From IMG/VR virus record IMGVR_UViG_3300032116_000484, positions 1-41,109 of that record: DNA of 41,109 nt. One strand, given 5' to 3'. The notes beneath the pieces were generated by a model. The model saw only the letters and a list, made by a program, of their open reading frames with translations. It did no database searches and had not been told where the DNA came from. Source of the stretch: a virus. This document shows, piece by piece, positions 8,801 to 26,293 of the stretch. The position numbers were made by a program, and so were the translations under genes. The first letter of the stretch is position 1. Each line of letters opens with the position of its first letter.

Positions 8801-11638
8801 ATGGCAAGTTCAAACAGAGTTTTCGTTTCTCCTGGTGTATATACCTCAGAGAAGGATTTAACATTTGTGGCTCAAAGTGTGGGTGTAACAACACTCGGTT
8901 TAGTAGGTGAAACCTTAAAAGGTCCCGCTTTTGAACCAATTTTAATCAGCAACTTCGACGAGTTTAAAACATATTTTGGACCATCATCACCCGTAAAAGA
9001 TGGTAATGGTAATCCAAAGTATGAATTACCATATGTTGCGAAATCATATTTAGAAGAATCAAATCAATTATTCGTAACAAGAGTTTTAGGTTTAACAGGT
9101 TACAAACCAGTAAAAACTTACGGTATTAAAACTTTAGGTGGAGTTTCAGTTACATTAACAGGTTATACCTCAACAACAGGTATAACATTAACACCAACAA
9201 CAGCTGGTATCACAGGTAGTACAATTTACGGTGAATTATCGGGTAAAACATCATTTGATGGTACATCTATTACAGATTACATTAAATCTGAATTTAGTGG
9301 TTATACCACTGGTCAGACAGGAAATTGGTTTGTAATTGGTAAACCTGACGCAGATGATGTTGCAGCTTTAACTGCATCAAAAGAGGTTGTATCTCCATTA
9401 ACTGGTCAGGATAATGAAACATCCAATCACGAAAAAGAATGGTACAATGTGTTTTTTAACAGTGGAGCAACAATAACAGATGTTTATTCATATCTGTTTG
9501 TTTGGGATGGTACAGGTTTTGATGTTACAAGATATGAATATAACGCGTCAATAAATTCGGACTATAATAATATTGTTGTGGCCGCTTTAAGATCAAGAGG
9601 TTCATATAGTGGTCAAACATTAAATTTAGAAGTAACAGGTTCAACCGTAAGTATATCGGGTGATATCACAGGAAATCCTTTAGGTGAATTTACATTAAAT
9701 GTAACAGGTTCAACAAGTGGATCTAAGTCATTCACCTGTTCTTTAGACACAACGTCAACTAAATTCATTACTAAAGTTTTAGGACATGAAGTTTTTGACA
9801 AAGTAAAATCAGATTTCCCTCTATATGTTCATGAAGTTTATTCTTCTCTTTTAAAATCGGCATTTGATAAGGGTTTAATTAGAGGTTTAAGCACCACAAT
9901 AGTTGAAGAATCAGATGGTAATAACTTCTTGGGTCAGTGGGATACCACAATTTCACCAATGGTTGTATCTGAGGTTCGTGGTGGTGAGGTTGCTGATTTG
10001 TTTGAGGTTATTACAATTTCAGATGGTGAAGCTGCAAACTTCCAAGTTAAAATTACAATCCAAAACATTGATTTGGATAGTGGTGATTTCGATTTAATAG
10101 TAAGAGATTTTAATGATTCTGACGATAATATCGTTGTATTAGAGAAATTTACAAGATGTAATATGAATCCAGACCTACCAGGTTACGTGGCAAGAAAAGT
10201 TGGTACATCAGATGGTGAATATGAATTACGTTCAAGATACGTTATGTTATCTATGGCTGACAATCATCCAACTGACGCTTTCCCTGCGGGTTTTAAAGGA
10301 TTTAAAAATAACGGTGCGTTTGGTAGTGGAAATAAATTAGGTAGTGTTTTATATAAAACTGAATACTTTGACGCAGGTGATGTGGTATCGTATGAAGTAG
10401 ATGGTACACCTGTTTTATCAAATGGTGATAAAATAAGAAAGGTTTCCTTAGGTTTATCCTCTCAAGTTGGGTTTGATAGAGACTTATTGAAATACAAGGG
10501 ATTAGGAGCCTTAACAGAAACTTTTGGTTTCCACTTATCAACAAACGCATCTTCTATAACGGGAGTAACATTCCAGTGTACACCATATGATTTAGAAGGT
10601 TCAAGTAAAGATAAATTGGAAAACATTTCTTTCCGTAAGTTCACTTTCGCGGTGTTTGGTGGTTTCGATGGATGGGATATCTATAGAAACGTAAGAACAA
10701 ACGAAGATTCTTACATTTTTGGTAAGAGTGTTTATGTAAGTGGTCACACAACTAATGGAGGTGTTTTTAGTTCAACTGTCGGAAACTCAGACTACTACTC
10801 ATACTTACAAGGTATAAACACTTTTGCAAACCCTGAAGCGGTAGATATTAACGTATTTGCAACACCAGGTATAAATTTCTTTAACCATAGTTCATTGGTA
10901 ACACAAGCAATTGACATGATTGAAAACGATAGAGCTGACTCACTTTATGTGATGAATGCCCCTAACGTTTCAACTGCAGAAGAGGTTATTGACAATTTGG
11001 ATTCAATTTCAATTGATAGTAACTATTCAGCAACATATTGGCCTTGGATTCAGGTGAGAGATGGAGACAATGCAACTCAATTGTATATTCCACCAACAGG
11101 TGAAGTTTTAAAGAATATAGCATTGACTGACAATGTTTCATATCCTTGGTTCGCTGTGGCGGGTTACTCAAGGGGTCTTATAAATGCAATTAAAGCGTTC
11201 AAGAAGTTAACCCTTGATGAAAGAGACGACCTTTACAAGAACAGAATTAACCCAATTGCTACATTCTCAGACACTGGTACAATTATTTGGGGTAACAAAA
11301 CCCTTCAGGTTAGAGAATCCGCACTTGATAGAATCAACGTAAGAAGATTGTTATTAAGAGCTAGAAAGTTAATTTCGGCGGTTGCGGTTAGATTGTTATT
11401 TGAACAAAACGATGAACAAGTAAGAAATGAGTTCTTGAGATTGGTAAACCCTATTCTTGAGTCAATTAAGAAAGAAAGAGGTTTATATGATTTCCGTGTA
11501 ACAGTATCTAACGATCCAGAGGATATTGACGCAAATACACTTAGAGGTAAAATATACATCAAACCTACTCGTTCTCTTGAATTCATAGATGTGGAGTTTG
11601 TTATTACACCTACAGGTGCATCTTTCGATAACATTTAA
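8801..11638 (+). CDS. gp18: Tail sheath protein (gp18-like)
   Basis: Contractile sheath subunit that polymerises around the tail tube. The N-terminus 'SPGVYTSEKDLT' (10-21) and the following 'GLVGETLKGPAFEP' are the standard sheath start. The C-terminal domain (about 770-945) has 'RRLLLRARKLISAVAVRLLF', 'NPILESIKKERGLYDF' and 'GKIYIKPTRSLEFIDVEFVI', the conserved sheath core. At 945 aa it is much longer than T4 gp18 (659 aa). The excess lies in a central Thr/Ser/Gly-rich part (about 105-330) with two copies of a 'VTGST' repeat, probably outward-facing insertion domains. It is a monocistronic unit with its own box 36 nt upstream and a terminator at 11661-11687. Confidence 0.93.
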   Translation: MASSNRVFVSPGVYTSEKDLTFVAQSVGVTTLGLVGETLKGPAFEPILISNFDEFKTYFGPSSPVKDGNGNPKYELPYVAKSYLEESNQLFVTRVLGLTGYKPVKTYGIKTLGGVSVTLTGYTSTTGITLTPTTAGITGSTIYGELSGKTSFDGTSITDYIKSEFSGYTTGQTGNWFVIGKPDADDVAALTASKEVVSPLTGQDNETSNHEKEWYNVFFNSGATITDVYSYLFVWDGTGFDVTRYEYNASINSDYNNIVVAALRSRGSYSGQTLNLEVTGSTVSISGDITGNPLGEFTLNVTGSTSGSKSFTCSLDTTSTKFITKVLGHEVFDKVKSDFPLYVHEVYSSLLKSAFDKGLIRGLSTTIVEESDGNNFLGQWDTTISPMVVSEVRGGEVADLFEVITISDGEAANFQVKITIQNIDLDSGDFDLIVRDFNDSDDNIVVLEKFTRCNMNPDLPGYVARKVGTSDGEYELRSRYVMLSMADNHPTDAFPAGFKGFKNNGAFGSGNKLGSVLYKTEYFDAGDVVSYEVDGTPVLSNGDKIRKVSLGLSSQVGFDRDLLKYKGLGALTETFGFHLSTNASSITGVTFQCTPYDLEGSSKDKLENISFRKFTFAVFGGFDGWDIYRNVRTNEDSYIFGKSVYVSGHTTNGGVFSSTVGNSDYYSYLQGINTFANPEAVDINVFATPGINFFNHSSLVTQAIDMIENDRADSLYVMNAPNVSTAEEVIDNLDSISIDSNYSATYWPWIQVRDGDNATQLYIPPTGEVLKNIALTDNVSYPWFAVAGYSRGLINAIKAFKKLTLDERDDLYKNRINPIATFSDTGTIIWGNKTLQVRESALDRINVRRLLLRARKLISAVAVRLLFEQNDEQVRNEFLRLVNPILESIKKERGLYDFRVTVSNDPEDIDANTLRGKIYIKPTRSLEFIDVEFVITPTGASFDNI

Positions 11639-11949: not shown

Positions 11950-12438
11950 ATGGCAGATTTATTAATGAAAATGCCGGTTCCATATGAACCGAAAAGACAA
12001 AACCGATTTATCGTTAGATTCCCATCATCTTTGGGTATCAATGAATGGTATGTAACATCAGCCGCTAGACCAGCTGCTAAAATCAACTCTGTGGCAATTC
12101 CTTTCCTAAACACTTCAACATATGTAGCTGGAAGATTCGAATGGCAGGAAATGAGGGTAACTTTTAAAGACCCAATTGGTCCATCAGCTTCACAAGCGTT
12201 AATGGAATGGTTCCGTTTACATGCGGAATCAGTAACTGGTCGTATGGGATATGCTGCTGGATATAAAAAAGATATTGAATTGGAAATGTTAGACCCAACG
12301 GGTGTTGTGGTTGAGAAGTGGATTCTTCAAGGTACTTTTATTACCGACTTAAACTTCGGTGATTTAGATTACTCAAGAGATGAAATTGCAACAATCACAT
12401 GTTCTTTGAGAATGGATAGATGTATCCAAGTTTACTAA
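11950..12438 (+). CDS. gp19: Tail tube protein (gp19-like)
   Basis: Subunit of the inner tail tube through which DNA passes, 162 aa, matching T4 gp19 in size (163 aa). The recognised pattern is 'PKRQNRFIVRFP' near the N-terminus, 'YVTSAARPAAKI' at 36-47, 'VTFKDPIGPSASQALMEWF' at about 74-92 and the closing 'LNFGDLDYSRDEIATITCSL'. The single tube fold is beta-rich. It has its own promoter box with a 36-nt leader and its own terminator at 12460-12486, so it is expressed as a separate short, probably abundant mRNA. Confidence 0.92.
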   Translation: MADLLMKMPVPYEPKRQNRFIVRFPSSLGINEWYVTSAARPAAKINSVAIPFLNTSTYVAGRFEWQEMRVTFKDPIGPSASQALMEWFRLHAESVTGRMGYAAGYKKDIELEMLDPTGVVVEKWILQGTFITDLNFGDLDYSRDEIATITCSLRMDRCIQVY

Positions 12439-12532: not shown

Positions 12533-13282
12533 ATGGAACAATTTGTAGTAGACCCAACAATTGCATATGATGTTGTTGAATTACCAAGTAGAGGTATTCA
12601 CTATACAACACAAAAAAAATCTTTAAGAGTTGCATACTTAACAGCCGCTGACGAAAATATATTATCAGCACAAAACCTAATTCAAAGTAATACGGTAGTT
12701 GACGAATTATTGAAAAGAAAAATTTTAGATAAAGATTTTAATTCAGATGATTTGGTTGATGAGGATAGGCAAGCAATTTTAATCTTCTTAAGAAATACCG
12801 CTTTTGGTCCCGAATTCAATGTTTATGTAACAGATCCAAAAACAAACGAAGCGTTTACCGCAAAGGTTGATTTAAGTGAAGTTAAGTTTAAAGATTTTGG
12901 ATTAACACCAAATGAAAATGGTGAATTCAAATATTTTATGGAAAAATCTAAAGTGGAAGTTACTTTTAAGTTTTTAACTAAGAAACAACAAAAAGAACTT
13001 GATGAAATAGAAAAAAGTTGGAATGGTAACGGAGTTGCTCCACTTGTAACTAAAGAATTGGAGATGATGATTAAATCTGTTGCAAGTAATAGAGAAATGA
13101 TGAACATTCACAACTTTGTTCAAAACCTACCAATTAAAGATTCACAAAATTTCAGAAAATACATTAAAGAAAATAAACCATCATTAGATCTTAAAAAAAC
13201 AGTAACGACCCCGTCAGGAGACACAATCCAAGTTGAAATTGGATTCGGGGTAGAATTTTTTCGCCCTTTCTACGGATTATAG
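12533..13282 (+). CDS. Tail assembly chaperone / baseplate hub assembly protein (gp26/gp51-like)
   Basis: A 249-aa protein with the hallmark 'ELPSRGIHY' (16-24), then 'LTAADENILSAQNLIQ', 'EDRQAILIFLRNTAFGPEF' and a long charged helical C-terminal part. This is the pattern of the T4-type protein annotated as baseplate hub assembly (gp26/gp51) and sits immediately before the tape measure gene, the usual place of tail assembly chaperones that coat the tape measure during tube growth. Near its end the frame contains T6 at 13256-13261. A shift there would replace the last residues by 51 codons of a second frame (see next entry), as in the G/GT pair of lambda and in Mu. The zero-frame product ends at TAG 13280-13282. 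It is probably a soluble, non-virion factor. Confidence 0.72.
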   Translation: MEQFVVDPTIAYDVVELPSRGIHYTTQKKSLRVAYLTAADENILSAQNLIQSNTVVDELLKRKILDKDFNSDDLVDEDRQAILIFLRNTAFGPEFNVYVTDPKTNEAFTAKVDLSEVKFKDFGLTPNENGEFKYFMEKSKVEVTFKFLTKKQQKELDEIEKSWNGNGVAPLVTKELEMMIKSVASNREMMNIHNFVQNLPIKDSQNFRKYIKENKPSLDLKKTVTTPSGDTIQVEIGFGVEFFRPFYGL

Positions 13283-13415
13283 TAAGGGACAATTAGACGA
13301 AATTTTATTTTTAGTAAAAAGAGGATTCTCATATCGAGACATCCTTCTTATGCCTGTCTATATCAGACGATATTATATTAGTTATTTAATTGAATTAGAA
13401 AATACTTCCAAATAG
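13260..13415 (+). CDS. Frameshift extension of the tail assembly chaperone (-2 or +1)
   Basis: In the frame +1 (= -2) to the chaperone, 51 codons run from TTC at 13260 to TAG at 13413-13415, 11 nt before the tape measure ATG. The frame is closed upstream by TAG at 13251-13253, and the zero frame ends at 13280-13282, so any switch must occur within under 30 nt, which contain a T6 run (13256-13261). A -2 slip re-pairs UUU with UUU perfectly, as in phage Mu; a +1 slip moves UUU to UUC ahead of the codon CGC. The peptide has an acidic/hydrophobic helix 'QLDEILFLVKRGFSYRDI' followed by 'MPVYIRRYYISYLIELE', like the T part of G/GT chaperones. The only internal ATG (13350) would give just 21 residues. 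The mode of shift is inferred. Confidence 0.6.
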   Translation, partial: FALSTDYSKGQLDEILFLVKRGFSYRDILLMPVYIRRYYISYLIELENTSK

Positions 13416-13426: not shown

Positions 13427-15352
13427 ATGAACAAACCGTTAATAAGTGATTATATTGGTAAATTTGGAAGTGCAGACGCAGATTCTGGTGCGTATATTGA
13501 CGCCATGAATATGTACAATAAAAATAATAATATTTCTGGTAGATATTCATTAACACAAGGAGAAAGTCAACAATTTTTATCTCACTATCATAAAAAGGGT
13601 TCTGGTGATACAAGTGGAAAAGGTGTAATTTCTAAAGCGGTATCCGCACAAGGGTTTACAACAGGATACGGAATGATAAGTGCGGAGGCATCTACTGAAT
13701 TAATTGGAGCTGACAAAATTGCCGATGCTGCGGTATCAATTGGTAAAGCGTTATTTGGTAGTCAATCACTAAAAGACGGTTTAAAAGGACTTTTTTCAAC
13801 TGGTTTATCAAATCTTTACGAAGGGATGGTGAACATCGTAAATAAGGAAGTTGAACTAAGGAATAAGTTAAATAGCCAAATTGGTATTGGAAAAGAATTA
13901 TCAAGAGGATATAGAGATAATATTGTAAATGCTTATGACGGTGTTCAAGGTATGGGTTATTCATTCGATGAATTGGCCGATACCGCAATATCCGCAACCA
14001 AAGAAACAGGAAGATTTTTCACAATGAATGAATCTGTTATGGAAAACATGGCAGTAACATCGAGAGCATTCATTGGTGACATGAAAGAAATGGCTCCAAT
14101 ATTAAGAAGTTTTGAACTCGTTGGTATTGGTGCAGAAAAAACATTAGAAAATATTAATGCGGGTGGTAAATCTTCACTTACATTAGGTTTAAATATTAGA
14201 AAAACAACAGAAGAATTTCAGAAAAACATCGGAAGAATAAATCAATATGGTTTTGAAAATGGTGTTCAAGGATTAAATAGAATGGTTCAAAAATCTGTTG
14301 AATTTAGAATGAACATGCAAAATGTGTTTGACATTGCAGAAAAAGTAATGTCACCTGAGAAAGCAATAGATTTAGCAGCTAATTTACAAGTATTAGGTGG
14401 TGCGATTGGTTCATTAGGTGACCCATTCCAAATGATGTATATGGCTACAAATAACGTGGAAGGATTACAAGATGCGTTGATTGGAGCCGCGGAATCTTTG
14501 GCCGTATATAGTGAAGAAAATGGTAAATTTGAAATAACGGGTGTTAACTTAAGAAGAGCGAGAGCTATGGCTGAAGAACTCGGTATGAGTTATCAAGACT
14601 TATCGCAAATGGCTATCGCTGCGGCAGAAAGAACCTCAGCTGCCGCAGATTTAATGACCGCGGGTATTGCTGTGGACGATAAAGAAAAAGAATTTATTAC
14701 AAACTTAGCTAGAATGGGTAAAGACGGTAAAATGGTTATTGAGGTGCCTCCGTCTATTGCGGAATCGTTGGGATTAGCAAAGGATCAAAGTACAATAGCA
14801 TTAGATGAATTAAGTCAAACCGCGGCAAATGCAATTTTAGAAAATCAAAAAGAGTTTGAAAAAATGAACCCAAAAGATATCGCATTAGAACAATTTACCG
14901 AAACACAAAAATTAGCATTAACAGTTTCAGAAATTGCTGCAATGTTAAAAGTTGAGTTTGCAAACACCTATAGAAGTATGGGTGCTGACATGGACAAGTA
15001 TATTAAGCAGGCTGATGATATGTTAAAAAACTATATCAAGGGTGATAGAAGTAACACGGATATAAATGCAGAAATTGAAAGTAGAAGAAAGGAATTAAAC
15101 ACAAAGGTTCAAGAAAATTCAACAAAAACATCAACTCAACCATTAACTCCCACAAATGTTAACAATAACCAACAAACTAATCAAAATAACACAAATACCG
15201 ACCCTAACAATAAACCTCTTACTGCGGCCGAAATGGAGAGAATTATGAGAGACGCAAGAACACAAACCAAATATGATGATAAGGGTAAAATTGTAATATC
15301 TAACACTATTGATTCCTCAAATCCAAATGGTTATTTGTATGTTGATTTATAA
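13427..15352 (+). CDS. gp29: Tail tape measure protein (gp29-like)
   Basis: Sets tail length and occupies the tube lumen. The 641-aa protein is almost wholly helical, with many A, E, M and K and few aromatics. It has heptad-like segments at about 130-330 ('NLYEGMVNIVNKEVELRNKL', 'MKEMAPILRSFELVGIGAEK') and a repeat-like 'MSYQDLSQMAIAAAERTSAA' region near 390. The C-terminus (about 563-600) is a Q/N/T-rich low-complexity linker. Length is close to T4 gp29 (590 aa); at the usual 0.15 nm per residue it implies a tail of about 95 nm (inference). Position after the chaperone and its frameshift extension, and before tube-initiator and hub genes, is the standard contractile-tail order. Confidence 0.82.
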   Translation: MNKPLISDYIGKFGSADADSGAYIDAMNMYNKNNNISGRYSLTQGESQQFLSHYHKKGSGDTSGKGVISKAVSAQGFTTGYGMISAEASTELIGADKIADAAVSIGKALFGSQSLKDGLKGLFSTGLSNLYEGMVNIVNKEVELRNKLNSQIGIGKELSRGYRDNIVNAYDGVQGMGYSFDELADTAISATKETGRFFTMNESVMENMAVTSRAFIGDMKEMAPILRSFELVGIGAEKTLENINAGGKSSLTLGLNIRKTTEEFQKNIGRINQYGFENGVQGLNRMVQKSVEFRMNMQNVFDIAEKVMSPEKAIDLAANLQVLGGAIGSLGDPFQMMYMATNNVEGLQDALIGAAESLAVYSEENGKFEITGVNLRRARAMAEELGMSYQDLSQMAIAAAERTSAAADLMTAGIAVDDKEKEFITNLARMGKDGKMVIEVPPSIAESLGLAKDQSTIALDELSQTAANAILENQKEFEKMNPKDIALEQFTETQKLALTVSEIAAMLKVEFANTYRSMGADMDKYIKQADDMLKNYIKGDRSNTDINAEIESRRKELNTKVQENSTKTSTQPLTPTNVNNNQQTNQNNTNTDPNNKPLTAAEMERIMRDARTQTKYDDKGKIVISNTIDSSNPNGYLYVDL

Positions 15353-15409: not shown

Positions 15410-18400
15410 ATGCCAAGTTACTTAGATTTTGATTCTACTAAAAGATTTAGAGATTATGTGTTAGGTAAAACTTTGAACCAGCCAAACGGCCCTCAAACTT
15501 TTAACTCAGGTAACTATTCTATTCAAAATTTGAGTGATAGTGCAAATATAAATCCGGGTACGGTTGTGGATAATAGAACTCAAATGTTACAACTTCCACA
15601 AACAGGTAACGTTTTTAAACCATTAGAATTTAGTGTAACCGAAAATATAGATACTCTACCAAGAAGAGCAAATCTTAGTTTATACCCATATTTTCAATTA
15701 CAAAACCACAATTTAATAAGTGTATTTAGACAGAATAATTTAGATTCTGAGTCAGAATTAATGAAGTTTGCGGGAAAATATCTATTATCTAACAATGGTC
15801 CCGTTTATTCAAGAATTTCACAAAATATCGAGAGACAAACAAATGGTAGACTTAGGATTGCAGATGCTCTAAATGGAAGTATTTCAACTGCATCGAATAT
15901 TGTAACAGGAAGGGAACCTTTGGTTGCTCCTGATTATAGTATCACCGTTGCGAAAACTTTACCAGGAAAGATTATTGATTTTGTTCAAGTTGCTGCGGGG
16001 GTTGAATTTCCTTTCTCAGAGATACCGGGTCAATATCTTTCCGACCCAAGAAACCCTGTTAATGTAAGACCAACACCCAAAACAGAATTAGGTAAGGTGT
16101 TTCAAGACGTTACAGGTGTTTTAGGTTCATTAATAGGTATAAAGAGAAGACAATCACCGTCAAGAAAACCATCCGATGTAATGATTGAATATCTTGGGGG
16201 CGGTCAAAAAAGTGTTCTTTATGATTTACTGTCATATTCAAAATACTCACCAAATTACACAACATCAGCAAGATCACAAAACACATCGAAGATTTTCAAT
16301 TTTGTCGATAAAGTTGCACAAGGAGTTAAAGACCTTTTAGGTGTTGAGGCTCCAAGAGGTGAGGCTTACATAGGTGATGATAGGGGTAACGATGTAAAAT
16401 ATGCGATGAATGATTTTAACGACATACCCGTTAGAAGTAATTATTTTTTAAGTTTAATGTTTGACCCCGTACAAGCTGAATTGTTCCAAAGAAAGAGAAA
16501 TTATTCTGAAGGTGGTAGTATAACAGGTAAGTTAACATGGATTAGTAGAAATTCTAAAAATGAATTAGGTGCGAACAATAAAGAATGGGCAAATCAACAA
16601 ACAGATTTAGACGATTCACAATCAACATCTTTTGATTTTAGACAAGATTCAATACTAGGGTATACCCAAGAAATTTTAGACTCATTACCATCAAACGGTG
16701 GTGAAGCTCGTTCACATGTTGCTAATGTTATTGATCAAACAAGTAGAATTTTTAGAGAAGGTGATGTTTTGTTAAGTAGAGGTTCTGCGGTTAAATATAT
16801 AGATAAATTTGGAGGAGAAAGTGGTGTAGAATATTGTAGAGTTTGGACTAAAGACAGGTCGTATTTAAATTATTCTGATACAATGAAAAGAACTCAGAAT
16901 ATTAGAAAGTACGATGATAGTATTTTAGATAGAACATGGAATCTTAATATTGCACCAATCTCTAATGGAGGTAAAGACTTCACAGAATCCACAAATATAA
17001 AACCAAGAGGTGATGGTTTTTATGCAAAAAAATATATGTTTTCAATTGAAAACCTAGCATGGAAAACATCAAACACGCCTGGTTTTACTGTAAATGATTT
17101 ACCTTATTGTGAAAGGGGAAATAATGGAGGTAGAGTTATGTGGTTTCCACCATATGACTTAAAAGTGTCAGAACAAAATACAGCTAGATGGGAAAGTAAC
17201 ACATTTTTAGGAAGACCCGAACCAATTTACACATATCAAAATACAGAAAGAAGTGGTCAAGTTTCTTTTAAAGTTGTTGTTGATCATCCGAGTGTACTAA
17301 ATTTATTGGTTAGAGAACATTTCAAAGGAATGTCAGATGAAGAATCTGAAAATTATATAAACGCATTTTTTGCTGGTTGTGAAGAAATCGATTTTTATGA
17401 TTTAATAACAAGATATAGAGAAATAACACCAGATGATGCTAAATCCATTACAGATTATTTGAACGGGAAAAAAGACCCCGATAGAATTAAAGAATTTAAA
17501 ACTGTAACAACAGGCGACGTTCCTAAAAAAGAACCACCTGTTTTGAAAGATAATAGTGAAAAAGTAAATCTCACAGTAAGTTTAAACTTTGCAAATGATT
17601 GGCCTAAAAAAGTCGGAAGTGATGAATTTAAAGGTGCAATATATACATCTGAATATAATAGATCAATTGGTGATACAGGATGGTTGAATTCTACTACGAG
17701 TAATTTGAATTCAATATTAGATGAAATATTATCTGGTACTTCATATAATACCGCGAACGCAATACATGATAAAAAAATCTTATTTGGAAAAGATATTCCA
17801 ACAGGAGAAACACTTACATATAAAAACCAAGTTGTTGCTGATTTAAATAAAGAAATTAACGAAGCACAATCTGGATTTACTAAATATGAAACCCAAACAA
17901 CAACTTTAAAAACAGATATTGAAGCTGGATTAGTAAAAAATTTGTCTGTTCAGATAGGGTCTTCTTGTTCTGCACTAGCGGATAATAATTACAATTTTAG
18001 ATTATCAATTAGAAGAACATATAGTATCATTTTAGATTTTTTAGATAAAATAAAAAAAGATGTTGATGCTAAAAGTATTTTAGACTCTAAATGGCCATCA
18101 TCTTTTAGTGGTAATGCGACTCAACAAACAAATTTTGATTTAGAAATAACACTAAAAGAATTGGGGTATAGTGAATCTGATGGTAAAATAAATTTTAGAA
18201 CAATTAGTTCTGGTGAATTGGCTTCAAATAAAAATAGAGATTGTTCTAATAGTGAATTCAAATATGGTATAGGTAATAGTAATAATAACGATATTTCATT
18301 AAAAGTTGTATCACCTGTTGCATTTGGTTGTAGACAATCCGCCGTGATTTTTGAATATACAAAAACCACGAAACCAGACCCATCTCAATCAACACCTGAA

Positions 18401-20164
18401 CCGGACCCAACAATAAAAACAAGACTAGAACCTACTGACGGACCTACAAACCCTCCATCGTCTAATAAACCACCAATCGATTTGATGAAGAGGATTATTA
18501 TGAAAACACTTAGTGAGTGTTATTATTTTCAAAAGTTAGAAGAAAGTGATCCCGTGGTGTTCAAAACACTTAGAGAAAAATTAAAATATTTTCATCCGGC
18601 TTTTCACTCAACAACACCAGAGGGTCTTAATTCAAGATTAACATTCTTGTTACAATGTATTAGGCCGGGTGATACAATTCCTATAAAGGGATTAAGTGAT
18701 GTTTCTGATTTAAATGCAAGAAATACTTCATTTGGTCCACCACCAATTTGTATACTAAGAGTTGGTGATTTTTATCATTCTAAAGTTATTATCAGAGATG
18801 TTAACATAACATTTGAAGATGCGACATGGGATTTAAATCCAGAAGGTATCGGTGTACAACCAATGATTGCAAACGTATCTCTACAGGTTAACTTTATTGG
18901 TGGACAAGGATTGTCAAAACCAGTCGAAAGACTACAAAACGCATTGTCTTCTAATTTCTATGCAAATACTGAAATGTATGATGAGAGGTCAATTAATACC
19001 GCGGAGACAATAAACGGTCAAAAGAGAGAGGAATTCACTAGAGAATTTTTAGAAAAAATAAGAGAAACACTTCCAAAAATAGAAGATAAACCAAATAATA
19101 GTAAGGGGGATAATTTTTCCGAAGGATACATTGGTAAATTACAATCTACCAATTTAGTTTACACTGAACTAGTTGACGATGTTTATAAATCAACAGAAAA
19201 TTATTTTGAAAAAATTCAATCTTTTTACAATGAGATAGTAAAAGAGTATGGACCATCAATTTCATCCTTTATTTTACACCCAAATTATAGAGAAATTAAA
19301 CAATATGATATATATAACACAACATCATCAAGTGCGGGACTTAATATAGATTTATTTGGTGAGTATCCAACAAATAGACAATTATCTTATTACGTTAAGG
19401 TTTTAAAAGAATCTATGTTAAAGACGTTGTTAACAACTGATATATGTCAAATGATGGGTCTTGATGATGTTTTACCAGTACCAAAACAAAATAAAGCAAA
19501 TGAATTATTACAACCATATTTTAAAACAACAATTGAAACTAAAATAAATTCAATAACAGACAAAGTACAAATCTTATTGAGTGGAAGTGATGGTTTTATT
19601 AAACAAAGAGACGAGGTTATTGAATCTTTAGACAAAGTTAACTTTTTAGTAAAATATGGGTATGATGCTAAAATTACAGGAACAACAGTAACCAAGTGTG
19701 TATTATCAGGATTCACATATAATTTAATTTATGATGAATATGAAAACTGTATAGAACACTTTACAAATAATACAAATAAATTATACGAAGATTTAGATAC
19801 TACAATAAACTATAATAACCCAACAATCACTACGAGTGTACTTTCTGAACTATTATCTGTATTATTAAAAGAAACAGATAAAGAAGGATTTAAAAATGTT
19901 TTTAAAATAGATACTTCAATTTTCGATACAAACACCATGAATAAAATTGAAAGAAAATATGATTCTTTTATTTCTGATTCAATTAAAGATAAAAGGTTTA
20001 GATTAAAAAAACTAAAGAAAAGAAAAAACAACAAAGAGATTTCATTCGCGAAATCTACCGAGTCAGAAGTAACAGATGATGCGGTTAAAAGTGAAGTTAA
20101 AAAATTAAAAGATAAAAATAAAACTCAACCGATAAATAATAAATTAAACTATTTTAACTCATGA
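15410..20164 (+). CDS. Large baseplate/tail-tube-initiator-like protein with an OmpA-like domain
   Basis: A 1584-aa structural protein in the position of T4 gp48/gp54 (tube cap and initiator), between tape measure and LysM-like protein. Residues about 574-630 hold 'MWFPPYDLKVSEQNTARW' then 'FLGRPEPIYTY' and 'ERSG', a pattern of tail-tube/LysM connector proteins. Residues about 715-880 resemble an OmpA C-terminal (peptidoglycan-associating) domain: a strand with 'LNFANDWP', and later 'NYNFRLSIRRTYSIILDFL', which fits the OmpA signature N-x2-LS-x2-R. A Pro/Thr linker follows at about 985-1015, then another tube-like segment (about 1107-1155) with 'FGPPPICILRVGDFY' and 'WDLNPEGIGVQPM'. The C-terminus is charged and Lys-rich. 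It overlaps the next gene by ATGA. The domain reading is by eye. Confidence 0.55.
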   Translation: MPSYLDFDSTKRFRDYVLGKTLNQPNGPQTFNSGNYSIQNLSDSANINPGTVVDNRTQMLQLPQTGNVFKPLEFSVTENIDTLPRRANLSLYPYFQLQNHNLISVFRQNNLDSESELMKFAGKYLLSNNGPVYSRISQNIERQTNGRLRIADALNGSISTASNIVTGREPLVAPDYSITVAKTLPGKIIDFVQVAAGVEFPFSEIPGQYLSDPRNPVNVRPTPKTELGKVFQDVTGVLGSLIGIKRRQSPSRKPSDVMIEYLGGGQKSVLYDLLSYSKYSPNYTTSARSQNTSKIFNFVDKVAQGVKDLLGVEAPRGEAYIGDDRGNDVKYAMNDFNDIPVRSNYFLSLMFDPVQAELFQRKRNYSEGGSITGKLTWISRNSKNELGANNKEWANQQTDLDDSQSTSFDFRQDSILGYTQEILDSLPSNGGEARSHVANVIDQTSRIFREGDVLLSRGSAVKYIDKFGGESGVEYCRVWTKDRSYLNYSDTMKRTQNIRKYDDSILDRTWNLNIAPISNGGKDFTESTNIKPRGDGFYAKKYMFSIENLAWKTSNTPGFTVNDLPYCERGNNGGRVMWFPPYDLKVSEQNTARWESNTFLGRPEPIYTYQNTERSGQVSFKVVVDHPSVLNLLVREHFKGMSDEESENYINAFFAGCEEIDFYDLITRYREITPDDAKSITDYLNGKKDPDRIKEFKTVTTGDVPKKEPPVLKDNSEKVNLTVSLNFANDWPKKVGSDEFKGAIYTSEYNRSIGDTGWLNSTTSNLNSILDEILSGTSYNTANAIHDKKILFGKDIPTGETLTYKNQVVADLNKEINEAQSGFTKYETQTTTLKTDIEAGLVKNLSVQIGSSCSALADNNYNFRLSIRRTYSIILDFLDKIKKDVDAKSILDSKWPSSFSGNATQQTNFDLEITLKELGYSESDGKINFRTISSGELASNKNRDCSNSEFKYGIGNSNNNDISLKVVSPVAFGCRQSAVIFEYTKTTKPDPSQSTPEPDPTIKTRLEPTDGPTNPPSSNKPPIDLMKRIIMKTLSECYYFQKLEESDPVVFKTLREKLKYFHPAFHSTTPEGLNSRLTFLLQCIRPGDTIPIKGLSDVSDLNARNTSFGPPPICILRVGDFYHSKVIIRDVNITFEDATWDLNPEGIGVQPMIANVSLQVNFIGGQGLSKPVERLQNALSSNFYANTEMYDERSINTAETINGQKREEFTREFLEKIRETLPKIEDKPNNSKGDNFSEGYIGKLQSTNLVYTELVDDVYKSTENYFEKIQSFYNEIVKEYGPSISSFILHPNYREIKQYDIYNTTSSSAGLNIDLFGEYPTNRQLSYYVKVLKESMLKTLLTTDICQMMGLDDVLPVPKQNKANELLQPYFKTTIETKINSITDKVQILLSGSDGFIKQRDEVIESLDKVNFLVKYGYDAKITGTTVTKCVLSGFTYNLIYDEYENCIEHFTNNTNKLYEDLDTTINYNNPTITTSVLSELLSVLLKETDKEGFKNVFKIDTSIFDTNTMNKIERKYDSFISDSIKDKRFRLKKLKKRKNNKEISFAKSTESEVTDDAVKSEVKKLKDKNKTQPINNKLNYFNS

Positions 20165-20487
20165 GTAGAAGTTATTTCGATAGGTATCAGTTTTTTATAG
20201 ATGATGGTAAATTCAGAATAGTACCTGGTATTGAAATACCAATAAAAGGTACAGACAAATATCATCAATATAAAAGAGGGAAAGATAGATTAGATAAATT
20301 ATCACAAGAGTTTTATAACACCCCAATTTTTGGTTGGTTAATTATGATGGCCAATCCAACTGCGGGTACTAATGAATTTGAAATTGGAGACAATTACATT
20401 TTAAGAATACCATTTCCCTTGAACTCCACTTTACAAGATTACAAGAGAGGAGTAGAGTTGTATAATTTATATTATGGCGAACAATGA
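20161..20487 (+). CDS. gp53: LysM-like baseplate protein (gp53-like)
   Basis: A 108-aa protein with a LysM-type pattern at about 40-95: 'RGKDRLDKLSQEFYNTPIFG' followed by 'WLIMMANP' and, after a turn, 'FEIGDNYILRIPFPL'. This matches the start of T4 gp53 ('EEIANAIYGNPQLYWVLLM'), whose fold includes a LysM-like unit, and also the gpX-type LysM protein that joins tube and hub in simpler contractile phages. It is shorter than T4 gp53 (196 aa). Its start overlaps the previous stop (ATGA) and its end overlaps the hub gene by 14 nt, so translation of the three is probably coupled. Confidence 0.62.
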   Translation: MSRSYFDRYQFFIDDGKFRIVPGIEIPIKGTDKYHQYKRGKDRLDKLSQEFYNTPIFGWLIMMANPTAGTNEFEIGDNYILRIPFPLNSTLQDYKRGVELYNLYYGEQ

Positions 20488-23400
20488 TTTATCGAATACT
20501 GAAAATATATTAATTAAGACCGATGAGAATAATTTAATATACATCGATCCTAATAGTGTATTGGTTGACGGTCAAGTTCAACCAAGAAACGTGTCTCAAG
20601 AAAAGATGGTTATGTATGTTAATCTTGAGGCTGATATAATTCCAAGAACAACCTTAGCTTCCGATGGTGATAAAAATTCACTTAGAAGTATTGCAAGTGG
20701 AACCTTAAATTTTTTATCCTCTCAAGTGGGTGATGCAACTGATCCATCAAATAGGGCGTTCACAACAAATTGGACAGACGCGTTTTTAGAAACTAATCAA
20801 AAAAAAGATGAAAAGGGAAATCCTGTTGGGGACCCTTTTAGAAGTGATGGATCGGGTCAATCTTTTGGTATCGAAAGTATTTCCGTACAAATAAAGGGAG
20901 CTAACTTTATTCCTCAAGTTGTAATAAATTTTATTGACGTAAGAGGTAAAACATTATTCGATTCACCCGAAAATTCACCATATAAGGCGTTCTTTCATAT
21001 ACCATGGCCGATATTTTATTTATCAATTAAAGGATATTATGGTAAGACAATAAGATATAGACTTCATTTGGTTTCATTTAGTTCAAGATTTAATTCTGGT
21101 TCGGGTAATTTTGAAGTAACAACAAAATTTGTTGGGTCCACATACGCTTTCATGAATGACATTCCATTAAAAGCCATTTTGAATGCACCTTATATGTTTA
21201 TAAGAACAGTTGAGGGATCACAAAAATTTAATGAACAAACTGGTTTGTATGAAAAAAAGGCACTAAAATCATCAAAGGGATATCAAATATTAAAATCAGT
21301 TTATTCTGAAATGAAACAAAAGAAACTGATTCCACAAGATTTTCCAGTTAAGACATTAAGAGAAATCTGTTCACTGGCATCCACATTAGATAAAAAATTA
21401 GAACAACAAATTTTTGACCAAGTCATTGACCCAACCGTTTTGGATGGTATAAGAGCCTACAGAGAAGTTTTAAAAAACTTTGAAGTTGCGGTTAATGGTT
21501 GGAAAAATAAAAATTTAGATTTAACAATATTCACTGATCAATTTATTATTGATTCTGAACCAGCAAGAGGATATGCTTTAAAAGCAAAAGATAAACTCGA
21601 TTTAGTTTTAGTTACTGGTGCCACTGTAAATAATACACTAGAAGGAATAATAAAAACTTATTCAGAAAATTTAAAAATATTACAAAAAACTTTTAACGAT
21701 AACGTAAAGAAAAATGAGAAAGGTGAAATCGTCGGAGTCGTTGTTAATACAAGACTATTATCAAACACTTTACCACCAATTACCACTTATTACAATAAAC
21801 TTCAAAACGACCCATCAAAGTATTATATATTATTTGACAAGTTAATGTCAGACATACACTCAATCAAAAAAGTGTTTTTTGAACAAAACGTGAAAATTGA
21901 AAAAGAGATTGAGAAACAAATGAATAACATAATAAAGAATCCAAGTAAGGGTTTTGGTTTCGAACCTACTGTAAGAAATTTATTTGCGGTAGTATTAGCG
22001 AATGCAGAGGTTTATGTCAGAATGATGAAAGATGTTCACTTTGACGCCTTTAATGTTTCGAATGATAGAAAAACCCTTATCGGTAAATTTTCTGATGAGT
22101 CGGTTGGCGATGCGATTTATCCATGGCCAGAAATCAAAAAAACAACACCTGGTGATAAACAAAGAGTTATTGCATATCCAGGTGAACCAGAATTACAGGA
22201 TAAATTACAATCATATAATGGTTTATTGTGGCCTGAAGTTTCTTTCATTGAAGAATTTATTGGAGTATCAACAAACGTCAAAGACCCATTAGTTGAAAGA
22301 GAAGGTGGTGTAAATGATTTACAATATATTTTCGAAAGCAATCAAGAAGAGTCAAGGATAAACGATATAAGTCAACTATTCAGAGTACAAGATACATTAC
22401 CATATGGTAACAGAACCCCCGTTTCGTTTTTATATGAAATATATGAAAGAGCGAAACAGATGACATTAGTTGATTCTTTTGATTTTAGTGTTTTAATTGA
22501 ATTAGCCAACATTGAATTTAAAACCATTCAACAAGTTGCTGGAGAAGAATTAGATATTTTAGACATATTAAAAACCCATATTAATTCAAAAGATAAACTT
22601 TTGGAATACATGAAAAAACTTTCACCATATGAAAGGTTTGAAAATTATAAGGAATCCGTACCAACAACAAATTATTTAAAAGAGACCATTACAAAATCAT
22701 TTAGAATTGATCAATATAGAGGTTTAGATACATCTAAAAGCGTTGATTTAACACCATATGAGAAATTAGATAAGTTTTTAATAAATTATACACCAGAGGA
22801 ATATAGAAAAAACATATTCCCATTCAATTCAAGCAAATATTTGTCTTATATCAATAAAAATAGTTTTACTGATGACGAATTTAAGTTTAAAGGTATTTTT
22901 AGATTAAGTAATGATACGGATGATTTTATAACAACGCCATTTAATATAAAACAATGGATTAAATCTCTGTATAGACCCTTAAATGAAAATTATAATTTAT
23001 TTACACGAGAATATACAATAGGTGATAATTTTACACACATTTTAAATACACCATATTTTCACAAACAATTATATAGTGACTTTAATAAAACAACGTCTTT
23101 TGGAAAATATGTCGGTTCGGCATATCTATTATTAAATTCACTCCCTTATTTAGATTTGAGAGATGAGATAAGTTTTCAAAGGGCCGATAATAATTCCACA
23201 CTAAACACACTTGAATCTAAAAGATTATCATCAATTTTTAGAGAAATTGGTGCAACACACTATGTTCCATATCATTTGATTGTTAAGTGGGGGTCAATAT
23301 ATCATAGATACAAAAAGAAAAAAATAGAGGGTATTGATATATTAAATGGATTTACAACATCTAACACTGACACTACAACCACAAATATAAATGGACAACA

Positions 23401-26293
23401 ATTTTTTGACATACCTTCTATTGGTTCGAGTTTGAATATATATCAATTATCGGGACAAACGGTTTCACATGCTTTAGGTAAAGACGTAGGTGTTCATCCT
23501 TACTATGATGCAATTTACCATCAAATAGTTAATGGGTATAATCACTTTGTTGTTTCTTCAGGTAAAACATCATTTGAAACCAACGTATCAAATAACACAA
23601 TAAATTTAAAATATAGACAAAGAGAAAACGGGTTAAATTATTGGACACAATATGTGGACAATTCAAAATTTACACCAAATGATTTAACATACACAATATT
23701 ACCCTGTGATGGATTTAATCCCGCAATTAATTTAAAATCTAAAGTAAATGGTATTGAACCATCTAATTTTGATTTTGGTACATCCGAACAATTTAATTTT
23801 AGATTAGTTTGGAAAACCGAATATGTTGAGGAGAACTATAGTGGTAAAACATTTACATCACCATCAGAATACAATATGAAGGCTGGTGGAGATATTTTAC
23901 AACTATCTAATGACCAAGAAAAAATATATGATTTAATTGCAACTTTTAGTCCGCAAATATTAGATGAATTTGAGGACATCTTTTTACAATTTAGTTCTGA
24001 ATTTGTTGAAATTGAGAATCCAGTTAAGAAATTTGATAATGTTGTGTTTGATAATTTCCAAAAATTATTAAAGGAAATTGTAACAGTAAAAAAGGAATCG
24101 GGAGATGGGGATATAGAAGAAACAATTATAAAAATTGTAAACAAACAAAGTAAAAAATTAGCGGAAATATCAGAATTGATATGTAGTGAGAGAAATATGT
24201 TGAAAATTACATTAGGAAATCCAAAAGAACTAGATTCATATGTTTTGGATAACTATGTAAATAATGAATTACCTTTTGGTGAATATAATTTTGCTTCACA
24301 AAGTGGAAATACGAAATATCTTGAATTATATGTTGGTGAAAACCCTGACACAGGTATAACCTATTTAGATTTTTTTAACATATCTGATATTGCACTAAAT
24401 GAGGAAAACATTTTATTATTTAGACCTTTAATATTGATTTATGGTGGTTATATAAAAAATGGTGGAACGAATAATGTAACGGCATTTTCAAATTATTTAA
24501 AAAACAATATATTAGATAAACCAAACACCTCAATAATACCTGGTGGGGCAAATAACAGACTTAATTTATTTTTATTACAATTAATTAGTAAATTTTCTTC
24601 TTTAAAAATAGAAAAGAACAATGCTAGTATAGACTTTGTAGATGGTTATAATAATAGACAAATTAAGGTAGAACTTTATAACACATTCAAATCATTTAAT
24701 GATAAATGGGTTGCGGGTAATTCATTGGGACAAAGACTTTTGTTTGAAGAATTTTTATTTTTAGACAGAGCTAATAGAGATATTGGTAGTAAAGCATATT
24801 TGAATATAAGTAAGTTTAGTGCATTAACAAACAATAAAAATGACAAGGCAAATCTTTATTCTACAATTTCCATGTTATTAAAAGATAGTGGGTTTGACAT
24901 GAGAGCATTACCCGCGTATATTAACTTTTATGGAACCAATATATCAAACAGATCCAAAATTACACCCTCCAAAAAGGTAGCCGAAAATTTATTTGGAACA
25001 TTCTTAGATGTCGATTATGAAGAATCATCACCTAAAATAATTGTTCAGTTTGTTGGTCCAACATCTAAACATACCGCTGATGGAGATAAAAACTTTAATA
25101 AGTTTAATGATGATAGTTTTGATATCTCGAACAGAAATAAAAATCCGTTAATTGTAACTCTTCCTGAATTGTACGATATTGACCAATTAAATAAATCCAA
25201 TAAAGTAGTTGCTTTTGAGGTTAGCTTCGGTGACCAATATCAAAATATTTTCAAAGGAGTAACACTTGATCAAACTACACTAAGAAACACATCAGAATCT
25301 TTTGTTGTATTGGAAAACTTAGCTAGATCAGAATCGGGAGCAGGCACATACAATGTGGACGTTAGTCTTTTTGATTATTATAAACAGGCATCATATTCTT
25401 GTGACGTTACTTGTATGGGTAATGTGATGATTCAACCAACAATGTATTTTTATTTGAAAAATATACCCATGTTCAGAGGAACATATTGGATAACCGAGGT
25501 TAGTCATAATATTAGAAATAACAATATTGAGACTTCGTTTAAAGGAACAAGAATACCGGTTGCATCGTTACCTGATCCAGAGGATTCGTTTGTATCAAGT
25601 TATAAGTCACTTTTAGATAAAATAACAAATGCTGCTCGAGCAATTGTTAAGAGAGCAGATGCATCAAGTACAACTGGTACAACCGAACAAGTTATTAGAA
25701 CACCTGAGGGTAATTTTACAACTGATTTAGGTAAAACAAAAATTAACGGAGAAGTATTAGTTCAAAGTGCGGGTATTAGTGAATTTGGTATTCCATATAA
25801 TGGATTTGGTAATGAGAAGTACATTCAGAAAATAAAATATGGAAATACGGGGGAATGGTTTAGGGCTGTGGTTGTTAGAATGGGAATGGAATCAAAAATT
25901 TACACCATACCCGATACAACACATATGTCTTTGTTAACTAGATTAAGAAATACCGCAAATGTTAATTCCGAAGGTGAAACTGGTTTAAAATGGTCAGAAT
26001 TAAATGTTTTATCAAATTCTCACAACTTTTATTCTACAAAGTTTCAATTTACAAATAGTATAACCGCGGATAAAATCATAACAGGAACGACTGAATTTCT
26101 GAATCCAAATAACGGTAAAACATCGTCAGTTAGCCCAATATATGATATAGATAGAAGGGTTGAAACACTTAACGTTTCAGGACCGGTTAATATTGGACCG
26201 TTTATTGATGGATATGGTATTGCATTATCAAATAAATTAATGGAGACTTTACGTATTCAAGAGGGAGATGTTCTATATTTTAGAATAAAATAA
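20474..26293 (+). CDS. Very large baseplate hub protein
   Basis: A 1939-aa structural protein in the hub position (gp27/gpD-type) of the tail cluster. The N-terminal domain (about 131-235) has 'FIDVRGKTLFDSPENSPY', 'HIPWPIFYLSIKGYYGK' and 'GNFEVTTKFVGSTYAFM', a set seen in large T4-like phage structural proteins. The middle (about 240-1600) shows long mixed helix and strand without a recognised domain. Residues about 1639-1695 look like the gpD/gp27 type of hub ending: 'GNVMIQPTMYFYLKNIPMF' then 'GTYWITEVSHNIR' and 'TSFKGTRIP'. The last 240 residues form a separate beta-rich domain; its end, 'IALSNKLMETLRIQEGDVLY', is faintly like a double-psi barrel but without clear catalytic residues. No lysozyme motif of gp5 was found. 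It overlaps the LysM-like gene by 14 nt. Confidence 0.6.
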   Translation: MANNDLSNTENILIKTDENNLIYIDPNSVLVDGQVQPRNVSQEKMVMYVNLEADIIPRTTLASDGDKNSLRSIASGTLNFLSSQVGDATDPSNRAFTTNWTDAFLETNQKKDEKGNPVGDPFRSDGSGQSFGIESISVQIKGANFIPQVVINFIDVRGKTLFDSPENSPYKAFFHIPWPIFYLSIKGYYGKTIRYRLHLVSFSSRFNSGSGNFEVTTKFVGSTYAFMNDIPLKAILNAPYMFIRTVEGSQKFNEQTGLYEKKALKSSKGYQILKSVYSEMKQKKLIPQDFPVKTLREICSLASTLDKKLEQQIFDQVIDPTVLDGIRAYREVLKNFEVAVNGWKNKNLDLTIFTDQFIIDSEPARGYALKAKDKLDLVLVTGATVNNTLEGIIKTYSENLKILQKTFNDNVKKNEKGEIVGVVVNTRLLSNTLPPITTYYNKLQNDPSKYYILFDKLMSDIHSIKKVFFEQNVKIEKEIEKQMNNIIKNPSKGFGFEPTVRNLFAVVLANAEVYVRMMKDVHFDAFNVSNDRKTLIGKFSDESVGDAIYPWPEIKKTTPGDKQRVIAYPGEPELQDKLQSYNGLLWPEVSFIEEFIGVSTNVKDPLVEREGGVNDLQYIFESNQEESRINDISQLFRVQDTLPYGNRTPVSFLYEIYERAKQMTLVDSFDFSVLIELANIEFKTIQQVAGEELDILDILKTHINSKDKLLEYMKKLSPYERFENYKESVPTTNYLKETITKSFRIDQYRGLDTSKSVDLTPYEKLDKFLINYTPEEYRKNIFPFNSSKYLSYINKNSFTDDEFKFKGIFRLSNDTDDFITTPFNIKQWIKSLYRPLNENYNLFTREYTIGDNFTHILNTPYFHKQLYSDFNKTTSFGKYVGSAYLLLNSLPYLDLRDEISFQRADNNSTLNTLESKRLSSIFREIGATHYVPYHLIVKWGSIYHRYKKKKIEGIDILNGFTTSNTDTTTTNINGQQFFDIPSIGSSLNIYQLSGQTVSHALGKDVGVHPYYDAIYHQIVNGYNHFVVSSGKTSFETNVSNNTINLKYRQRENGLNYWTQYVDNSKFTPNDLTYTILPCDGFNPAINLKSKVNGIEPSNFDFGTSEQFNFRLVWKTEYVEENYSGKTFTSPSEYNMKAGGDILQLSNDQEKIYDLIATFSPQILDEFEDIFLQFSSEFVEIENPVKKFDNVVFDNFQKLLKEIVTVKKESGDGDIEETIIKIVNKQSKKLAEISELICSERNMLKITLGNPKELDSYVLDNYVNNELPFGEYNFASQSGNTKYLELYVGENPDTGITYLDFFNISDIALNEENILLFRPLILIYGGYIKNGGTNNVTAFSNYLKNNILDKPNTSIIPGGANNRLNLFLLQLISKFSSLKIEKNNASIDFVDGYNNRQIKVELYNTFKSFNDKWVAGNSLGQRLLFEEFLFLDRANRDIGSKAYLNISKFSALTNNKNDKANLYSTISMLLKDSGFDMRALPAYINFYGTNISNRSKITPSKKVAENLFGTFLDVDYEESSPKIIVQFVGPTSKHTADGDKNFNKFNDDSFDISNRNKNPLIVTLPELYDIDQLNKSNKVVAFEVSFGDQYQNIFKGVTLDQTTLRNTSESFVVLENLARSESGAGTYNVDVSLFDYYKQASYSCDVTCMGNVMIQPTMYFYLKNIPMFRGTYWITEVSHNIRNNNIETSFKGTRIPVASLPDPEDSFVSSYKSLLDKITNAARAIVKRADASSTTGTTEQVIRTPEGNFTTDLGKTKINGEVLVQSAGISEFGIPYNGFGNEKYIQKIKYGNTGEWFRAVVVRMGMESKIYTIPDTTHMSLLTRLRNTANVNSEGETGLKWSELNVLSNSHNFYSTKFQFTNSITADKIITGTTEFLNPNNGKTSSVSPIYDIDRRVETLNVSGPVNIGPFIDGYGIALSNKLMETLRIQEGDVLYFRIK

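Follow-up and report, generated by a model that had tools for sequence, protein, structure and literature searches.

How might a phage of the T4 type draw two tail assembly chaperones from one gene, and which way would the ribosome step between the frames? The question is raised by a viral DNA stretch of 41,109 nt (IMG/VR record IMGVR_UViG_3300032116_000484, positions 1 to 41,109; hereafter the window), in which a chaperone-like gene ends inside a second open frame that runs on almost to the next gene. The initial annotation, made from the letters alone, proposed a -2 (or +1) programmed frameshift at a run of six T.

The chaperone gene and its tail cluster

The features of the locus are as follows.

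8801-11638, plus strand: tail sheath (PF04984, phrog_23)
11950-12438, plus strand: tail tube, gp19-like (PF06841, phrog_4542)
12533-13282, plus strand: G (TAC-N), short form of the tail assembly chaperone, 249 aa (PF12322, phrog_150)
12533-13412, plus strand: predicted GT (TAC-NC) fusion, 293 aa, read through with a single TTTC step
13247-13250, plus strand: GGGG upstream of the shift site, five bases before T6, conserved
13254-13415, plus strand: frame of the T (TAC-C) domain, +1 relative to G, ending at TAG 13413-13415 (selection, conservation)
13256-13264, plus strand: shift site TTT_TTT_CGC, with TTT in the E-site, TTT in the P-site and CGC in the A-site
13427-15352, plus strand: probable tape measure protein, 641 aa (position, synteny)

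The G frame runs from ATG 12533 to the stop TAG at 13280-13282, and its product matched PF12322 in Pfam (E 4.4e-9, 36.8 bits against a curated cut-off of 24.5) and phrog_150 in PHROG (E 6.9e-11). By these profile matches, G is a member of the T4 gp26 family of tail assembly chaperones (PF12322). The AlphaFold (AF2) model of the 249-aa protein had a pLDDT of 89 and matched predicted structures in BFVD, namely the baseplate hub subunit of SP-15 and other T4-like gp26 proteins. A fold search of the PDB with this model gave no significant match, a PDB sequence search returned only chance matches to Rab8, and no match was found among isolate phages searched at the DNA level.

In the tail cluster of the window, the sheath, the gp19-like tube, G and T follow in this order before the presumed tape measure gene. 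As the product of 13427-15352 matched no Pfam or PHROG profile, we infer its identity from its position and from synteny with Flavobacterium phage immuto (sheath-tube-hub-TMP). The tail sheath, of 945 aa, is unusually long, and the proteins encoded at 15410-20164 (1584 aa, with no Pfam or PHROG match) and 20474-26293 (1939 aa) are both very long.

Coding status of the second frame

The +1 frame is closed by TAG 13251-13253 and open from 13254 to 13412, which gives 53 codons, 44 of them past the zero-frame stop; the 51 codons counted after the zero-frame end in the initial annotation were a small miscount. Since the upstream TAG closes the frame, the switch has to fall between 13254 and 13282, as had been claimed, and the T6 run does lie at 13256-13261. 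The gap of 11 nt between the stop of T and ATG 13427 of the presumed tape measure gene was likewise given correctly. As a chance control, we counted how often the ends of control genes in the same loci are followed by a shifted frame that stays open for 38 codons or more. Frames of that length followed 14% (+1) and 9% (-1) of the control ends, so the open frame of the window taken alone is not significant.

Conservation is decisive here. The T frame was retained in all 25 close relatives (71-100% identity), and in a wider survey of IMG/VR contigs, from which 105 non-redundant relatives were analysed, the +1 frame was open for 39-108 codons beyond the stop in every one (105/105). Pairwise single changes in the T region among 20 unique close relatives comprised 1918 synonymous and 524 non-synonymous changes with zero stops when read in the +1 frame, against 288:2174 in the zero frame and 385:2265 in the -1 frame, each of which had hundreds of stop-type changes. 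This codon-wise purifying selection, confined to the +1 frame, together with the conservation indicates that the second frame is a genuine, conserved coding sequence. The alignment of homologues proposed as a check thus turned out in favour of the annotation, with the frame present throughout and the substitutions mostly silent in it; together with the PF12322 match, these data support, at the sequence level, a programmed frameshift in a G/GT-type chaperone gene. More than 100 contigs that were assembled independently, and isolate genomes too, show the same arrangement with the second frame under selection, and this conservation refutes an assembly error or a decaying gene, an explanation for which no support was found and which is barely credible.

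Isolates carrying the T frame include Flavobacterium phage immuto, Microcystis phage Mel-JY01, Bacillus phage SP-15, Listeria phage LIS04, Streptococcus phage GXN1, Rhodothermus phage RM378 and Pseudomonas phage QdP_Psa3. Homologues lacking the second frame, named beforehand as evidence against the shift, did not occur among the 105 relatives analysed; outside this set, profiles detected no T domain beside G in some gut or rumen Bacteroidota relatives (L235, L236, L239, L240, L242, L247 and L248), so the G/T arrangement is not universal. In most of these loci a coiled-coil, tape-measure-like ORF lies almost directly after G. Elsewhere (L004, L005, L006, L011, L013 and L014), the sequence differs among close relatives directly past the T stop, which suggests an exchange of the tape measure region at this point.

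The T domain might still be made as a stand-alone small protein by internal initiation. It is annotated as a gene of its own in Bellamy and KVP40, and an ATG, GTG or TTG occurs somewhere past the site in 46 of 99 relatives. The T frame of the window has no ATG, GTG or TTG before the Met of MPVYIRRYY, a start that is internal to the domain, and where some relatives have a TTG upstream, the window has TAG. Moreover, the positions of such starts are not conserved, in contrast to the invariant shift site. We therefore regard internal initiation as very improbable.

The shift site and the probable direction of the slip

The overlap has the makings of a G/GT switch: a shifted ORF that overlaps the end of G, is under coding selection and has no start of its own, and a conserved slippery site, TTT_TTT_CGN or TTT_TTT_TGG. 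Positions 13256-13275 are invariant in 20 unique relatives, and nearly all sites take one of these two forms, with TTC_TTT_CGN and TTT_CTT_TGG as variants. The base after the P-site YTT is C or T in 93 of 99 non-redundant sites, and such a pyrimidine is what +1 re-pairing needs, whether tRNA-Phe moves from UUU to UUC or UUU, or tRNA-Leu from CUU to UUU. Where the A-site codon is for arginine, it is CGN in all 74 cases, while the same genes elsewhere use CGN for 182 of 1006 arginines and AGA or AGG for 824 (82%). CGC occurs once in the 11,667 codons of the window, namely in this A-site, and exactly once in 31 of 33 related loci; CGG is absent from the window, whose G+C content is 32%, and no tRNA genes were found in it. 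The rarity of the codon cannot be all there is to the signal, as some relatives have in the A-site TGG or CGT, a codon that the window uses more often than CGC. A +1 slip would re-pair the TTC triplet without decoding it, and the upkeep of this triplet therefore speaks for the slip, although the bases of the overlap are also held in place by dual coding. LIS04 (TTT_AGT) and a group with TTA/TTT-AAT-CCC-AGT need another exact slip.

The initial annotation preferred a -2 slip, as in G/GT of phage Mu, a known -2 chaperone case, in which the P-site tRNA-Phe would move two bases back on UUUUUU. The T6 of the window permits this, and the run is present in 85 of the 99 relatives; it is broken in the rest, immuto among them, so its proposed conservation held for most sites only. 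However, -2 re-pairing is impossible in the relatives with TTC_TTT_CGN (7), TTC_TTT_CAT (1) or TTT_CTT_TGG, which keep the same T frame. Nor would a -2 slip need C or T after the P-site codon or CGN over AGA, and both are strongly kept. Because of this conserved pyrimidine and the CGN in the A-site, we favour +1 over -2, so that the second of the two directions originally offered is the better supported and a -2 slip appears improbable. The two directions predict different junction peptides: a -2 shift, similarly improbable as the source of the fusion, would give an extra Phe (...EFFFALSTDYSK), and a +1 shift ...EFFALSTDYSK, with GVEFF of G joined directly to ALSTDYSK of T.

Slippage of RNA polymerase on T6, with one base lost or two gained, would also place G and T in frame, in a subpopulation of the mRNA. 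It could draw on the same run in 85 of 99 relatives, but immuto, GXN1, QdP_Psa3, L057, L097 and L103 have no unbroken run, and six T are short for polymerase slippage. It is even less probable than internal initiation.

Nearby elements gave no clear stimulator. At the invariant GGGG, 57 of the 66 relatives that have glycine there encode it by GGG, a codon used for about 10% of glycines elsewhere. As a Shine-Dalgarno stimulator GGGG seems a poor candidate, its spacing and the host type being unlike those of RF2. A search for a stimulatory RNA structure downstream found no covariation (fold z -1.57); a single consensus hairpin emerged, in which GGGG is paired with CCC around the slip site, and nearly all of its pairs are invariant. 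A Shine-Dalgarno-like leader precedes 1 of 21 genes of the window; this near-absence makes an RF2-type Shine-Dalgarno stimulator unlikely and a slow A-site codon the natural driver. Few such leaders are also consistent with a Bacteroidota host, which is probable here, as the nearest isolate infects Flavobacterium and several relatives lie in Bacteroidota genome bins.

Taken together, these results make it very likely that a single gene for a T4-type tail assembly chaperone yields two proteins here, via +1 P-site slippage at TTT_TTT_CGC. Most ribosomes would terminate at TAG 13280 and release G, of 249 aa. A minority would halt at the very rare CGC in the A-site while tRNA-Phe occupies UUU 13259-13261 in the P-site; this tRNA would then advance by one base to UUC 13260-13262, which suits its GAA anticodon better, and decoding would resume at GCC in the +1 frame to give GT, of 293 aa. 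If lambda is a guide, the tape measure protein would be coated by G, while GT would bring in tail tube subunits. UUU_Ynn is reported to be especially prone to +1 shifts in bacteria (PMC5009743). The influenza PA-X shift at UUU_CGU is proven by its junction peptide (PMC3498833), and among plant amalgaviruses UUU_CGN is widespread (PMC5052127). The window has UUU in the P-site, CGN in the A-site and a +1 continuation, and a motif known from eukaryotic viruses is thus apparently in use on bacterial ribosomes.

More tentatively, we suggest that a hungry-codon switch may set the chaperone ratio throughout a large T4-type branch, probably with mainly Bacteroidota hosts that lack Shine-Dalgarno leaders, that UUU_CGN arose independently in influenza and the amalgaviruses, and that the -1 relatives use the same T6C in the opposite register. 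If this is true, a near-unique CGC or CGN would stall the ribosome after UUU, and the G:GT ratio would follow the supply of tRNA-Arg in the host.

Relatives in the -1 frame and known systems

In cyanophage-type gp26 loci (L155-L234, L036 and L037) the T domain lies in the -1 frame, and T_TTT_TTC is invariant in 63 of 63 non-redundant IMG/VR loci of the cyanophage clade; KVP40 also has a homologous T domain in the -1 frame. The T domains of the +1 frame and of the -1 frame in cyanophages and KVP40 are homologous (hhalign E 5e-8). The -1 T profile matched the C-terminus of T4 gp51 (residues 199-244) with an E of 1e-5, whereas 500 shuffles reached 0.017 at best; the +1 T profile gave no direct match to gp51, which was reached by the -1 profile only. 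T4 gp26 and gp51 both match PF12322, and gp51 alone has the extra C-terminal domain. In the tree, the +1, -1 and T4 members separate with two state changes, Bellamy and KVP40 forming a -1 group beside T4; the deep branches are long, which makes any rooting tentative. The +1 and -1 groups share the T6C tract with the registers of G and T swapped. The window itself is not of the -1 T_TTT_TTC type: its -1 frame closes 4 codons past the stop, and its T6C lies in a different register from the heptamer of cyanophages and KVP40.

The initial annotation did not regard such shifts as an established feature of T4-type phages; publication has overtaken this, both for frameshifting in T4-like chaperones and for the two-gene solution of gp26 and gp51. 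Vladimirov, Gautam and Davidson (2022) reportedly identified the chaperones of T4-like phages and put forward genes 26 and 51 as their two-gene form, and frameshifting is said to be retained in several other T4-like groups. Our comparison supports the published view that in T4 gene 26 stands for G and gene 51 for GT, and adds to the T4-like picture a +1 branch with a simple signal. Where a small ORF after a gp26-like gene is labelled "hypothetical" or "baseplate hub assembly", it is probably a C-terminal half that has escaped annotation. What seems to be new in this branch is the +1 direction together with the UUU_CGN motif, although the 2022 study may include +1 cases. A 2016 review named T4 as the one exception among long-tailed phages, which as a rule produce two forms of the chaperone through frameshifting (PMC5009743), and a 2025 paper cites Vladimirov et al. 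for -1 poly-T signals in T4-like chaperones (PMC12846349).

The window resembles the T4-like TAC-N/TAC-NC pairs in its gp26/PF12322 family, in its position upstream of the tape measure gene and in the logic of two isoforms, but it carries +1 TTT_CGN, whereas the T4-like signals are described in the 2025 paper as -1 poly-T (PMC12846349). The cyanophage (Kyanoviridae) and KVP40 loci, with gp26 and a small downstream ORF, have homologous G and T domains and differ in the -1 frame of T. With G/GT of lambda (-1) and Mu (-2) it shares the gene order, an overlap of the two frames towards the end of G and the short T extension, and differs in the direction and signal of the shift. RF2 (prfB), with CUU_UGA, shows the same +1 re-pairing in the P-site at a slow A-site, and a few relatives even use CTT_T (CTT_TGG); unlike RF2, the window and its relatives have a sense codon (CGN or TGG) in the A-site instead of a stop, and no evident Shine-Dalgarno stimulator. 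With influenza A PA-X (UCC_UUU_CGU) and the amalgaviruses (UUU_CGN), the P-site and A-site signal and the +1 direction are identical, although these act on eukaryotic ribosomes in unrelated genes and the E-site codon of PA-X is UCC instead of UUU.
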